Below the pieces are notes generated by a model. The model was not told the DNA's origin, searched no databases, and was given only the letters and a program-made list of their open reading frames with translations. This document shows, piece after piece, positions 28,647-32,337 of a stretch of DNA of 64,000 bases; within the stretch, counting starts at the first letter, position 1, and each line of letters opens with the position of its first letter. The translations under genes were made by a program, and so were the position numbers. Source of the stretch: Hypericibacter adhaerens (GTDB lineage Bacteria; Pseudomonadota; Alphaproteobacteria; Dongiales; Dongiaceae); the NCBI RefSeq assembly GCF_008728835.1, contig NZ_CP042582.1, forward strand, positions 2,569,001 through 2,633,000, given 5' to 3'.

Positions 28647-29936
28647 ATGCTTGAAAAACTGTTCGACCTCACGGCGCACGGCACCACCGTGCGGCGCGAA
28701 ATCCTGGCCGGCGTCACGACCTTCCTGACCATGGCTTATATCATTTTCGTCAATCCGGGGATCCTGTCCGAGGCGGGGATGGATCACGGCGCCGTCTTCG
28801 TCGCGACCTGCCTGGCCGCCGCCTTCGGCAGCGCCTTCATGGGCCTGTTCGCGAACTACCCGATCGCGCTGGCGCCCGGCATGGGCCTCAACGCCTACTT
28901 CACCTACGCCGTCGTCAAGAGCATGGGCTACACATGGCAGATCGCGCTAGGCGCTGTCTTCCTGTCGGGCATCCTGTTCCTGATCCTCAGCATCCTGCCG
29001 GTGCGCGAATACATCATCAACGCCATCCCCAAGAGCCTGAAGATGGCGATCTCGGCCGGCATCGGCCTCTTCCTCGCCATCATCGGCCTGAAGGAGATGG
29101 GCGTCGTCGTCGCGGACCCCGCGACCTTCGTGACCCTGGGGCCGCTGACCAGCTGGCCGGTGATCCTGGGCTCGCTCGGCTTCGTGCTGATGGCGGCGCT
29201 CGATTCCAGGCGCGTGCCGGGCGCCATCATCATCGCGATCCTGCTGGTGACGGCCATCGGGGTGGCGCTGGGCGTCAGCCCGGCGCAGGGCGTGTTCTCC
29301 CTGCCGCCCAGCATCGCGCCGACCTTCCTGGCGATGGATATCGGCGGCGCCTTCAATCTCGGCCTCGCCGCGATCGTCTTCACCTTCCTCTTCGTCGACC
29401 TGTTCGACAATACCGGCACCCTGATCGGCGTCGCGCATCGTGCCGGGCTCCTCGACAAGGAGGGCAAGCTGCCGCGCATCGGCAAGGCGCTGATCGTCGA
29501 CAGCAGCTCGGCCATGGTGGGGGCGGCCCTCGGCACCTCGACCACGACCAGCTACATCGAGAGCGCGTCGGGCGTGCGCGCCGGCGGCCGCACCGGATTG
29601 ACCGCGGTCGTGGTGGCGATCCTGTTCCTGGCCGCCCTCTTCCTCTCGCCGCTGGCGGGAACGGTCCCCGCCTATGCCACGGCGCCGGCGCTGATCTTCG
29701 TCGCCTGCATCATGACCCGCGGCCTGACGGAGGTGGATTGGGAGGATGTCACCGAGTATGCGCCCGCGGTGGTGACCGCGATCGCCATGCCGCTGACCTT
29801 CTCGATCGCGAACGGCATCGCCTTGGGCTTCATCACCTATGCGGCGATCAAGCTGGTGGCGGGCCGCTGGCGCGAGATCCATCCGGCGGTCGCAATCCTG
29901 GCGATTGCCTTCATCTTGAAGTTCGCGCTGATCTGA
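28647..29936 (+). CDS. NCS2 family nucleobase permease, AzgA type
   Basis: Inner-membrane proton symporter for purine bases such as adenine, guanine or hypoxanthine. 429 residues with about 12-14 membrane segments. AzgA-clade hallmarks: MAYIIFVNPGIL (29-40), ALAPGMGLNAYF near 74-85, FVDLFDNTGTLIG near 245, and ALGTSTTTSYIESASGV near 291. Exact substrate not decidable. AAGGGG lies 5 nt before the ATG. A strong terminator follows, so it appears monocistronic. No purine riboswitch is seen in its 97-nt leader. Confidence 0.92.
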   Translation: MLEKLFDLTAHGTTVRREILAGVTTFLTMAYIIFVNPGILSEAGMDHGAVFVATCLAAAFGSAFMGLFANYPIALAPGMGLNAYFTYAVVKSMGYTWQIALGAVFLSGILFLILSILPVREYIINAIPKSLKMAISAGIGLFLAIIGLKEMGVVVADPATFVTLGPLTSWPVILGSLGFVLMAALDSRRVPGAIIIAILLVTAIGVALGVSPAQGVFSLPPSIAPTFLAMDIGGAFNLGLAAIVFTFLFVDLFDNTGTLIGVAHRAGLLDKEGKLPRIGKALIVDSSSAMVGAALGTSTTTSYIESASGVRAGGRTGLTAVVVAILFLAALFLSPLAGTVPAYATAPALIFVACIMTRGLTEVDWEDVTEYAPAVVTAIAMPLTFSIANGIALGFITYAAIKLVAGRWREIHPAVAILAIAFILKFALI

Positions 29937-29951
29937 GGCCGCGTGAGCCCC

Positions 29952-29991
29952 GCGGGCCGGTGCCGGAAGGGCGCCGGCCCGCTTGGTTTTT
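29952..29991 (+). terminator. Intrinsic terminator of the purine permease gene
   Basis: A 13-bp stem (29952-29964 with 29970-29982, one G-U pair) and a 5-nt GGAAG loop, followed by TTGGTTTTT. It starts 15 nt after the permease stop and isolates the permease from the downstream RNA gene. Confidence 0.85.
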
Positions 29992-30051
29992 GAGCGCCTT
30001 GCACCGGGCGTTGCCCGCCCCGGCGGCAGCGTTCGGAATGACGAAAATCGC

Positions 30052-30080
30052 GTGACGACAACGAGAAACTCCCATATATT
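30052..30080 (+). promoter_or_regulatory. Candidate sigma-70 promoter of the structured RNA
   Basis: GTGACG (30052-30057), exact 17-nt spacer, TATATT (30075-30080). Four of six and five of six positions match consensus. The expected start site is near 30087, at the edge of the first hairpin. Confidence 0.55.
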
Positions 30081-30086
30081 TCAATT

Positions 30087-30245
30087 GTGGTCGAACCGCC
30101 GGTTTCACCGGCGCGGCCCAGGTTCTGGGAGATGAGGGAGCGCCGAAGGCGCCCCGACGGTGGAAGCGCCAGCCCCAAATGGCGCGAGCCGCAAGGGATG
30201 GCACAGGAACCGAAGGCGAGCCGGGCAACCAGCTCGCTTTTTTTT
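30087..30245 (+). ncRNA. Candidate structured small RNA, family not recognised
   Basis: About 159 nt between a good promoter and an intrinsic terminator. Successive hairpins can be drawn: CGCCGG-TTTCA-CCGGCG (30097-30113), CCCAG-GTT-CTGGG (30117-30129), GGG-a-GCGCC-GAA-GGCGC-CCC (30136-30155), GCGCCA-N8-TGGCGC (30166-30185), and the terminator (30216-30237). GGTTC (30121-30125) could instead pair with GAACC (30207-30211), giving an alternative fold. I do not see the signatures of SRP RNA, RNase P RNA, tmRNA or the common riboswitches. It may be a trans-acting sRNA, a 6S-like RNA, or a terminated leader of the DUF2336 gene 288 nt downstream. 5' end and strand are inferred. Confidence 0.5.
30216..30245 (+). 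terminator. Intrinsic terminator of the structured RNA
   Basis: GCGAGC (30216-30221), 10-nt loop, GCTCGC (30232-30237), then eight T residues. With no protein gene ending upstream after the permease terminator, it argues for a separate RNA transcript on the plus strand. Confidence 0.85.
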
Positions 30246-30441
30246 GCCCGGAATCCAAGCTCATCCAGTATCCGGGAAACAGGCCCTAAGTAATTGTATT
30301 AACTATACCTGCCGATCCCTGCCGACGGCAGGCCGAGGCCTTAAGGCTCCTTAAAGCCGCGCGGGCGATAGTGGCCCCATCTTCAGCTTCCGACAGGCGA
30401 CCCATGAAGGCGGCTGCCGAGCCCTGCATCGAGACCGGGGC

Positions 30442-30463
30442 GGCGATTCCCGAAGGAATCGCC
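30442..30463 (+). other. Perfect 9-bp hairpin in the leader of the DUF2336 gene
   Basis: GGCGATTCC-CGAA-GGAATCGCC, about 70 nt before the start codon and without a U tract. A second small stem CCTGCC-GAC-GGCAGG lies upstream near 30319. The gene has no clear ribosome site, so leader structure may affect translation. Confidence 0.5.
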
Positions 30464-30532
30464 CGGCCCGTTTCCATTGTTGCGACGCCGCCGGCTCGCC
30501 AGCCCGCCCTGTGATCGCGCCCGCCGACGCCC

Positions 30533-31783
30533 ATGAACGCCGCCCCCGCCCGAGACGCGCTTCCCGATCCCGCCGCCTATGAGCGGGAGAAGAACCGCGC
30601 GGCCAATGCCGATCCGGCCGTGCGGCGCGAGCTGGCGCGCGAGCCGACGGTGCGGCCCGAGATCCTCTATTACCTGGCGAGCGACAGCGCCGCCGCCGTG
30701 CGCCGCGAGATCGCCACCAACCCGAGAACGCCGATCCAGGCCGACCTGCTGCTGCTCGAGGATCCCGACGAGCAGGTCCGGGCCGATCTGGCGCGGAAGG
30801 TGGCGCGTCTCCTGCCCGACCTCGGGCCGGACGCGCAGGCCCGCGTCCGGGACCGCATCGTCGAGATGGTGCGGGTGCTTGCGCGCGACGAGGTCGCCCG
30901 CATCCGCGCCATCGTCGCCGAGGCCCTGAAGAGCGCCGACAACGCGCCGCTGGACGTGATCCAGGCCCTGGCCCGCGATGTCGAGATCGGCGTCTGCACG
31001 CCGGTGCTGCGCTTCTCTCCCCTGCTGTCGGACGAGGATCTCCTGGCGATCATCGCCGCGCCGCCGGTCAAGGGCGCAACGCAGGCGATCGCGCAGCGCG
31101 AGGGACTCGGCAGCGCCCTGTCGGATGCGATCGCCGATGTCGGCGACGAGGCGGCGATCACCGCGCTCCTGGCCAACCCCTCGGCGCAGATCCGCGACGA
31201 GACGCTCGATCAGCTGGTCGACCGGGCGCCCGCCCATCCCCGCTGGCATCCGCCCCTGGTCGACCGCCCCGCCCTTCCCGCCCGGATCGTCGCCCGCATC
31301 GCCGTCTTCGTGGCGGCGACGTTGTTGTGGCGCCTCGACCAGCGCCAGGACCTCGATCCGGCCGCGCGCGATGCGGTGGCGGCCGCGGTCCAGCAGCGGC
31401 TTGCCGAACCCGACGTGGCGGCGGCGGTGGGGAAGAAGGAAAGCGCCGAGGACCGCGCGAAGAGGCTCCAGCAGCAGGGCAAGCTCGACGAGGCGAGCGT
31501 CGCGGCGGCGCTCGACAATGGCGACCGCGCCTTCGCGATCGCGGCGCTGGGGCTGTTGAGCGGGCTTGGCAGCGCGCTTGTCGGCAAGATCCTCTCGGCT
31601 CGCGGCGCCAAGGGCGTCGTGGCCCTGGCCTGGAAGGCGGGCATGAGCCCGCGCTTCGCGACCCAGATCCAGCTGCGGCTGGCCGGCATCCCGCCCAAGC
31701 AGATGCTGCAGACCCGGGGCGCCGCGGGCTGGCCGATGAACCCGGACGAGATGGCCTGGCATCTCGACTTCTTCGGCGGCTGA
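30533..31783 (+). CDS. DUF2336 domain-containing protein
   Basis: 416-residue cytoplasmic protein of DUF2336, a family found almost only in alphaproteobacteria. The N-terminal two-thirds is HEAT-like: repeated units such as ADPAVRRELAREPTVRPEIL and PRTPIQADLLLLEDPDEQVR, then NAPLDVIQALARDVEIGV, consistent with a protein-interaction scaffold. The last about 100 residues contain LDEASVAAALDNGDRAFAIA and are also helical. No catalytic motif. Some relatives have been linked to motility and stress signalling, but that is not shown here. The ATG at 30533 is fixed by an in-frame stop at 30512; no Shine-Dalgarno is evident. Confidence 0.85.
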   Translation: MNAAPARDALPDPAAYEREKNRAANADPAVRRELAREPTVRPEILYYLASDSAAAVRREIATNPRTPIQADLLLLEDPDEQVRADLARKVARLLPDLGPDAQARVRDRIVEMVRVLARDEVARIRAIVAEALKSADNAPLDVIQALARDVEIGVCTPVLRFSPLLSDEDLLAIIAAPPVKGATQAIAQREGLGSALSDAIADVGDEAAITALLANPSAQIRDETLDQLVDRAPAHPRWHPPLVDRPALPARIVARIAVFVAATLLWRLDQRQDLDPAARDAVAAAVQQRLAEPDVAAAVGKKESAEDRAKRLQQQGKLDEASVAAALDNGDRAFAIAALGLLSGLGSALVGKILSARGAKGVVALAWKAGMSPRFATQIQLRLAGIPPKQMLQTRGAAGWPMNPDEMAWHLDFFGG

Positions 31784-31797
31784 CGCCCGCTTTCGCC

Positions 31798-32337
31798 TCA
31801 GGCCTTGCGCGCCCAGGCCGGCTTGAGCTTCACGATCCGCTTATGGACCGGGCAGTCGTCCCGGTGCGCGCCGGGCAGATAGCCCAGGCTCATCAGGAAT
31901 TCGCCCACGATCTCGCCGCCGGTGAAGCGGAAGGTCTTCTTGAAGAGCTTGACCCATTCTTCCTTGCTCAGCGGATGGTGCGCATCGAGCCACCCGGCGA
32001 AGGAGCCGTGGCTTTCGCGCAGCGCCTGGATCCGCTGCGCATTCTCGATCGCCGCCTCGATCTTGAGCCGGTTGCGGATGATGCCGGCATCCTTGAGCAG
32101 CCGCGCCTTGTCGCGCGCCTTGAAGGCGGCGACCCTGTCGACATCGAAGCCCGCATAGGCCGCCTTGAAGGCCTCGCGCTTCTTCAGGATCGTCAGCCAG
32201 GACAGGCCGGCCTGATTGATCTCCAGCACGAGCCGCTCGAACAGGATGGTCTCGTCCTTGCTGGGGAAGCCGTATTCGCTCTCGTGATAGGGGCCGTGGA
32301 ACGGATGGCCGGGGGCGACGTCGCAATAGCTGCTCAT
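31798..32337 (-). CDS. tag: DNA-3-methyladenine glycosylase I
   Basis: Removes 3-methyladenine from alkylated DNA, starting base excision repair. 179 residues. Compared with E. coli Tag: zinc ligands C5, H18, H158 and C162 are all present with the right spacing (HxxxC at the end); the base-recognition Glu is E39 in LEINQAGLSW; KDAGIIRNRLKI is the HhH region. The common EWG is EYG here. Convergent with the DUF2336 gene; 12 nt downstream of DUF1467 on the same strand. Confidence 0.95.
   Translation of the reverse strand: MSSYCDVAPGHPFHGPYHESEYGFPSKDETILFERLVLEINQAGLSWLTILKKREAFKAAYAGFDVDRVAAFKARDKARLLKDAGIIRNRLKIEAAIENAQRIQALRESHGSFAGWLDAHHPLSKEEWVKLFKKTFRFTGGEIVGEFLMSLGYLPGAHRDDCPVHKRIVKLKPAWARKA

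Follow-up and report, generated by a model that had tools for sequence, protein, structure and literature searches.

Within the 64,000-nucleotide stretch of Hypericibacter adhaerens DNA analysed here (the window, from genome G000), a compact transcription unit lies on the + strand between an NCS2-type permease gene and a DUF2336 gene. The initial annotation had described it as an unassigned structured RNA gene and offered three readings, i.e. a new sRNA family, a divergent 6S-like RNA or a leader terminating before DUF2336. The features of the locus are as follows.

28647-29936, + strand: NCS2-type permease gene, upstream neighbour (Pfam PF00860)
29952-29982: 13-pair GC-rich hairpin with T-rich tail just 3' of the permease gene, probably the permease terminator
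30052-30080, + strand: promoter GTGACG-N17-TATATT (boxes GTGACG at 30052-30057 and TATATT at 30075-30080)
30087-30245, + strand: sRNA gene, candidate alphaR8 sponge (5' end inferred from the -10 box)
30089-30118, + strand: 5' hairpin (from the fold, with one two-sided compensatory change, G-C to A-U, relative to genome G001)
30115-30131, + strand: putative alphaR8 pairing site GGCCCAGGUUCUGGGAG, widened by the cofold to a duplex of 21 contiguous pairs at 30111-30131
30121-30126, + strand: 5' arm GGUUCU of a long-range helix, overlapping part of the alphaR8 pairing site
30136-30155, + strand: second hairpin (from the fold and comparison with G001)
30158-30191, + strand: third hairpin, with CCCCAAA in its loop (from the fold and comparison with G001)
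30206-30211, + strand: 3' arm GGAACC of the long-range helix, pairing with 30121-30126
30212-30245, + strand: intrinsic terminator and U-tract, also present in G001
31798-32337, - strand: tag, methyladenine DNA glycosylase gene, a frequent neighbour of such units (Pfam PF03352)

The sigma-70-like promoter noted previously is confirmed as the sole promoter-like site in 29500-30800, where shuffled sequences lead one to expect 0.1 (sd 0.2), and its box and spacing are kept in G001, the other genome of the genus, and also in G003, though the -10 element differs there. The four hairpins and the GGTTC/GAACC long-range pairing of the initial annotation are all recovered in the minimum-energy fold of the window RNA, which combines the 5' hairpin and the terminator with two internal hairpins and the long-range GGUUC/GAACC helix; at -75.6 kcal/mol (z = -2.21, with 2 of 200 shuffles equally or more stable) this fold is above chance, not extreme in GC-rich DNA. 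The terminator folds as a stem of 10 pairs (30212-30221 with 30232-30241), the last of which take the first Us of the eight-T run that ends at 30245, as had been read from the sequence; the terminator scan gave a 5-pair version. G001 carries the unit at 87% identity, and comparison of the 45 drawn pairs between the two genomes leaves 42 unchanged, one changed on both sides (G-C to A-U), two changed on one side via G.U and none broken, with 4 of the 20 changed columns falling within the 90 paired columns. On our own reading of the alignment, the innermost C-G pair of the second hairpin also becomes G-C in G001 if the loop gap is set beside it. Judged by this sequence evidence, 30087-30245 is very probably a real small-RNA gene, free-standing and with its own promoter and terminator.

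No Rfam family matches 30087-30245 at the gathering level and a relaxed search gives chance-level matches only, supporting the proposal of a new sRNA family without an Rfam entry. The 6S reading, for which length and free-standing architecture alone would speak, has in our view a negligible probability: the genome's 6S gene sits elsewhere (G000:C1:4389591-4389750, 54.8 bits, above the family cut-off), the 6S covariance model (RF00013) finds no match in the window, and the unit fold lacks a single long hairpin with a central bubble. Separately, a hidden small open reading frame within the unit was rejected, because the G001 unit differs by one- and two-base indels and because an ATG follows the SD-like motif in none of 44 units.

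That the unit is instead a leader or attenuator of DUF2336 has its position in its favour, the unit ending approximately 290 nt upstream of the DUF2336 start on the same strand, but the relatives make this very improbable. In G001 the start of a PAS-GGDEF gene (L002:2-1345, minus strand, upstream of DUF2336) intervenes between the two, in G003 tag directly follows the unit, and elsewhere the related units adjoin tag, the permease or neither; amongst 40 other loci, each about 3-4 kb long, 20 include tag in the flank, and DUF2336 is not a constant neighbour, so that the unit does not always precede it. Moreover, the downstream gene may have a promoter of its own in the AT-rich stretch TAAGTAATTGTATTAACTATA, which follows the terminator and is shared with G001. 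Together with a CCTTAAG..TCCTTAAAGC stretch it lies at 30286-30360, where both are conserved with G001 and may serve that gene as promoter or operator. At 30400-30532, only the first codons of the PAS-GGDEF gene seem to be left (ATGAAGGCGGCTGCCGAGCCC...), so that the window lineage has probably lost this gene. Of the initial interpretation, which proposed no mechanism, the free-standing RNA gene and the new family are retained and the 6S and DUF2336 readings are set aside.

A two-sequence covariance model of the unit found 2 of 17 order-level genomes convincingly and gave no convincing match beyond the genus; over 385 genomes of the class, G000 was the only convincing match and three others were taken as chance (two of these look, by their letters, like a pilin gene and a ribosomal-protein gene). 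Scanning the named genome collection for a pattern produced 19 scattered matches, and of the five of these loci that were run against the model none was credible, whilst BLASTN against 61 genomes returned one long match besides the genome itself, in G001, and the plasmid collection a single 22-nt match. The family was revealed by the sequence downstream of the permease in relatives, initially G003, G044 and G174 and then others. Amongst 50 permease orthologs examined (47 from 289 class genomes, plus those of G001, G002 and G003), 25 have a unit within 420-600 nt downstream and 25 have none in that interval; six permease genomes without a linked unit (G250, G150, G110, G071, G261 and G108) carry one elsewhere. 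A sequence profile built from 21 units, promoter included, and run over the 385 class genomes gave full-length matches (model start <=25, end >=105) in at least 56 of these sampled genomes, and the shorter matches, where checked, are the antisense of alphaR8 genes. At least 34 full-length matches were new, of which 28 were taken in and those of G355, G324, G328, G086, G175 and G385 left out, so that 53 units were read, 25 by position and 28 by profile. Within the window's family the unit occurs in 15 of 17 genomes, none being found in G002 and G016; the 12 family units beyond those of G000, G001 and G003 are weak profile matches (E 4e-5 to 0.35) that were accepted on promoter and core.

Conservation accordingly reaches beyond the genus, with related units in many alphaproteobacteria, most of which fit the alphaR8 of the genome that carries them (see below). 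These comprise a promoter (GTGAC-N17-TANNNT), a 5' hairpin, a core, hairpins and a terminator, and often adjoin an NCS2 permease and/or tag gene. Amongst the open-access papers listed by literature searches, judged by title and opening of the abstract, we found no account of such units outside Caulobacter.

The central stretch of the window RNA mirrors, as its reverse complement, a second sRNA encoded in this genome, a relationship that lay beyond the view of the initial annotation. Many relatives share the core GGCCCAAGUUUAGGGAGGAA, which is reverse-complementary to the alphaR8 sRNA (suhB/MmgR in Rfam and SisA-D in Caulobacter). These genomes carry their alphaR8 genes at other loci, typically as GGGCGUUUCCUCCCUAAACUUGGGCCGUG with a terminator behind it, so that the complementarity between unit and alphaR8 is one in trans. 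The alphaR8 of the window genome has CUCCCAGAACUUGGGCC in place of CUCCCUAAACUUGGGCC and the window RNA has GGCCCAGGUUCUGGGAG in place of GGCCCAAGUUUAGGGAG, and the 17 nt at 30115-30131 are complementary to the target-binding stretch of the genome's own alphaR8 except for one G.U. The sequence CTCCCAGAACYTGGGCC matches without mismatch at two sites in 5.87 Mb, one in the window RNA and one in the alphaR8 gene, and nowhere with a single mismatch; at <=3 mismatches there are 86 sites, vs 76 for a reversed control pattern.

When the two RNAs are cofolded with folding competition included, the 21 contiguous intermolecular pairs give a ddG of -15.6 kcal/mol. Shuffling the window RNA yields a mean of -7.3 (sd 3.0), with 3 of 300 shuffles as strong; measured against shuffled alphaR8 the gain is unremarkable, the mean being -11.5 (sd 3.9) and 37 of 300 shuffles equalling it. 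The predicted pairing covers CUCCC of the alphaR8 10-mer plus the next 12 nt and not the whole of UUUCCUCCCU, since the purine run opposite UUUCCU is degraded in the window's family. The site is also partly closed, either by the GGUUC/GAACC helix or by a local CCCAG/CUGGG hairpin.

The two RNAs vary together between genomes, in comparisons that cover some alphaR8 copies per genome rather than all. CAGAAC in alphaR8 is matched by GUUCUG in the unit in G000, G001 and 11 further family members, CUGAAC by GUUCAG in G003 and G005, CUAGAC by GUCUAG in G177, G049 and G274, ACUCAGG by CCUGAGU in G284 and G189 (longer forms ACUCAGGCC with GGCCUGAGU), and CUCAAC by GUUGAG in G110, there in one of the two alphaR8 copies read; other genomes have the pairs CUCGGG/CCCGAG and CUUGGG/CCCAAG. 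Length is matched in places as well: in G177, G049 and G274, two of the three alphaR8 copies have a one-base insertion that recurs in the unit, next to a mismatch, and in G200 both unit and alphaR8 have one extra base, with one mismatch. The genus of the former three carries three alphaR8 genes side by side (G049:C7:54432-55030, L131; G177:C4:3801090-3801687; G274:C1:743793-744391), and it is two of these tandem genes whose one-base insertion is matched in the sponge.

Duplex energies were compared between cognate and re-paired combinations of unit and alphaR8. The alphaR8 RNA was read for 22 of the 25 permease-linked units (none was found in G240, and G289 and G074 were left out) and recognised for 18 of the 28 profile-recruited units, none being recognised for the other 10. 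For the former 22 genomes the cognate mean was -51.1 vs -46.7 (sd 0.70) after re-pairing, a difference reached in 0 of 100,000 permutations; for the 18 later genomes it was -55.78 vs -53.02 (sd 0.66; 3 of 100,000), and with one genome per genus, 11 of these 18, the count was 154 of 100,000. Twenty-six genomes, one per genus, gave -52.97 vs -49.33 (sd 0.56; 0 of 100,000) and 52 genomes -51.66 vs -46.78 (sd 0.51; 0 of 100,000), all these permutations leaving shared ancestry in. The same signal would arise if units had been born repeatedly, each from the alphaR8 of its own genome. Within the window's family alone, the test on 15 genomes is not significant (-48.11 vs -47.48, sd 0.44; 9839 of 100,000), because 13 of the 15 alphaR8 cores there are identical. 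In several genomes the own alphaR8 pairs no better than those of others, i.e. G163, G075 and G219 in the 22-genome test and G319, G071 and G340 amongst the profile-recruited units.

A further question is which strand carries the gene. Like alphaR8/MmgR/SisA (RF00519, suhB), the unit has a core, and in many relatives a 5' hairpin, that can be read as the reverse complement of the alphaR8 core and terminator; it differs from alphaR8 in that promoter and terminator lie on the opposite strand, and the window unit is about twice as long. Were the functional gene an alphaR8 paralogue on the opposite strand, with the + strand promoter incidental, one could understand why Rfam suhB matches the opposite strand at 6 of 16 related loci (34-36 bits, below the cut-off of 41) and reaches that cut-off, at 41 bits, on the opposite strand of the G150 unit, why a strict terminator search, which succeeds for 31 of 53 units on the + strand, also finds terminator-like sites on the - strand for 21 of 53, and why for 38 of 53 units the - strand gives the better-folding 5' hairpin. 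Over the full unit, the + strand is the more stable one in only 23 of 53. Nevertheless, we regard this reading as improbable. The promoter pattern TGAC-N15..19-TA occurs on the + strand in 49 of 53 units, a count that for the 28 profile units is partly by construction because the profile includes the promoter, and on the - strand in none, with 3.3 expected after shuffling; amongst the 25 units recruited by position it is present in 22. At the window locus itself there is no suhB match, matches in relatives being to the opposite strand only; a search for - strand terminators gave none in the window unit or in G001, and the window helices contain G.U pairs that would be A.C on the - strand. The - strand hairpins and terminators fit a unit that mirrors the alphaR8 terminator, which suggests descent from an inverted alphaR8 copy. 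Some loci may be read on both strands, a candidate being the sponge-like unit at G150:C4:106291-106428 (L233).

As to the + strand transcript, we consider it likely, from its letters, that 30087-30245 is a free-standing, terminated sRNA acting in trans as an alphaR8 sponge. An RNA of the alphaR8/MmgR/SisA family is mirrored in this transcript, which would thereby probably capture and silence it. It would be transcribed from its own sigma-70-like promoter, and GCGCGGCCCAGGUUCUGGGAG (30111-30131) would pair with the alphaR8 stretch CUCCCAGAACUUGGGCCGUG, i.e. the 3' half of the anti-Shine-Dalgarno core running into the terminator stem. Such pairing would mask the target-binding site of alphaR8 and probably speed its decay, and mRNAs repressed by alphaR8 would consequently be released. 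Transcription itself, help from Hfq, the direction and outcome of control and its physiological trigger (carbon starvation in the Caulobacter case) are points that we infer.

This proposal resembles what Vogt et al. (2025, PMC12559287) describe for CrfA of Caulobacter crescentus. CrfA uses a G/A-rich stem loop to bind UUUCCUCCCU, the alphaR8 core of SisA-D; in a manner that depends largely on Hfq it brings SisA down about five-fold, and SisA targets are freed under carbon starvation; SisA represses a large regulon in Caulobacter (PMC12559287), and the alphaR8 RNA MmgR limits carbon storage in Sinorhizobium (PMC8844928). In both the window RNA and CrfA, a G/A-rich segment is set against the alphaR8 core, with the same target family. 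The CrfA site G49-C63 (15 nt) and its mutated part G49-G54 (6 nt) fit, in length and end letters, GUUUAGGGAGGAAUC and GUUUAG from the common core of the units, a correspondence drawn from the coordinates in PMC12559287 and not from comparison of CrfA letters; a text search of the literature for TTTAGGGAGG with Caulobacter gave a sole match, concerned by its title with promoter prediction. Unlike CrfA, known here by its description in PMC12559287, the window pairing would not span all of UUUCCUCCCU but would take in the 10-mer's 3' half together with AGAACUUGGGCC just after it, and an additional long-range helix partly closes the window site. QrrX, SroC and other bacterial sponge RNAs named in PMC12559287 are similar in that one RNA neutralises an sRNA, but have other targets and occur in other bacteria. 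Computation establishes the gene anatomy, the conservation, the unique complementarity and the co-variation of the two RNAs, and as far as its letters indicate the window RNA shows the features that a CrfA-like action requires of the sequence.

The pairing could also be real and the control reversed: alphaR8 would then chiefly act on the RNA, or the RNA would be an sRNA of dual function that also has mRNA targets, and titration would not be its role. The RNA outside the core is mostly free for other functions, and alphaR8 over-expression in Caulobacter also reduces full-length CrfA (PMC12559287). Set against this, the RNA is unlike an mRNA, with an ATG within 13 nt after the SD-like GGGAGG in 0 of 44 units, and the tested precedent, CrfA, is described there as a sponge; we judge the reversed arrangement unlikely.

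Beyond the proposed sponge at this locus, a wider reading may be drawn, although we lean slightly against it: alphaR8 would have a dedicated, class-wide antagonist that arose as an inverted alphaR8 copy with a promoter on the antisense strand, that has co-evolved with it in trans base for base and in places in length, and that mirrors the alphaR8 terminator hairpin and could unfold the Hfq-anchoring 3' end, with some loci perhaps read on both strands and CrfA as one lineage. If true, CrfA would exemplify a layer of control that extends across many alphaproteobacteria, and an antagonist so widespread would make regulation of the alphaR8 network directly testable in many species, for which the matched sponge and target variants provide ready-made compensatory pairs. 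The unit family could be curated for Rfam.

Finally, the -35 box of the units is mostly [G/A]TGAC and not TTGAC, often preceded by a run of A (e.g. L101, L117 and L118); besides serving as a -35 element, the box may be bound by a regulator.
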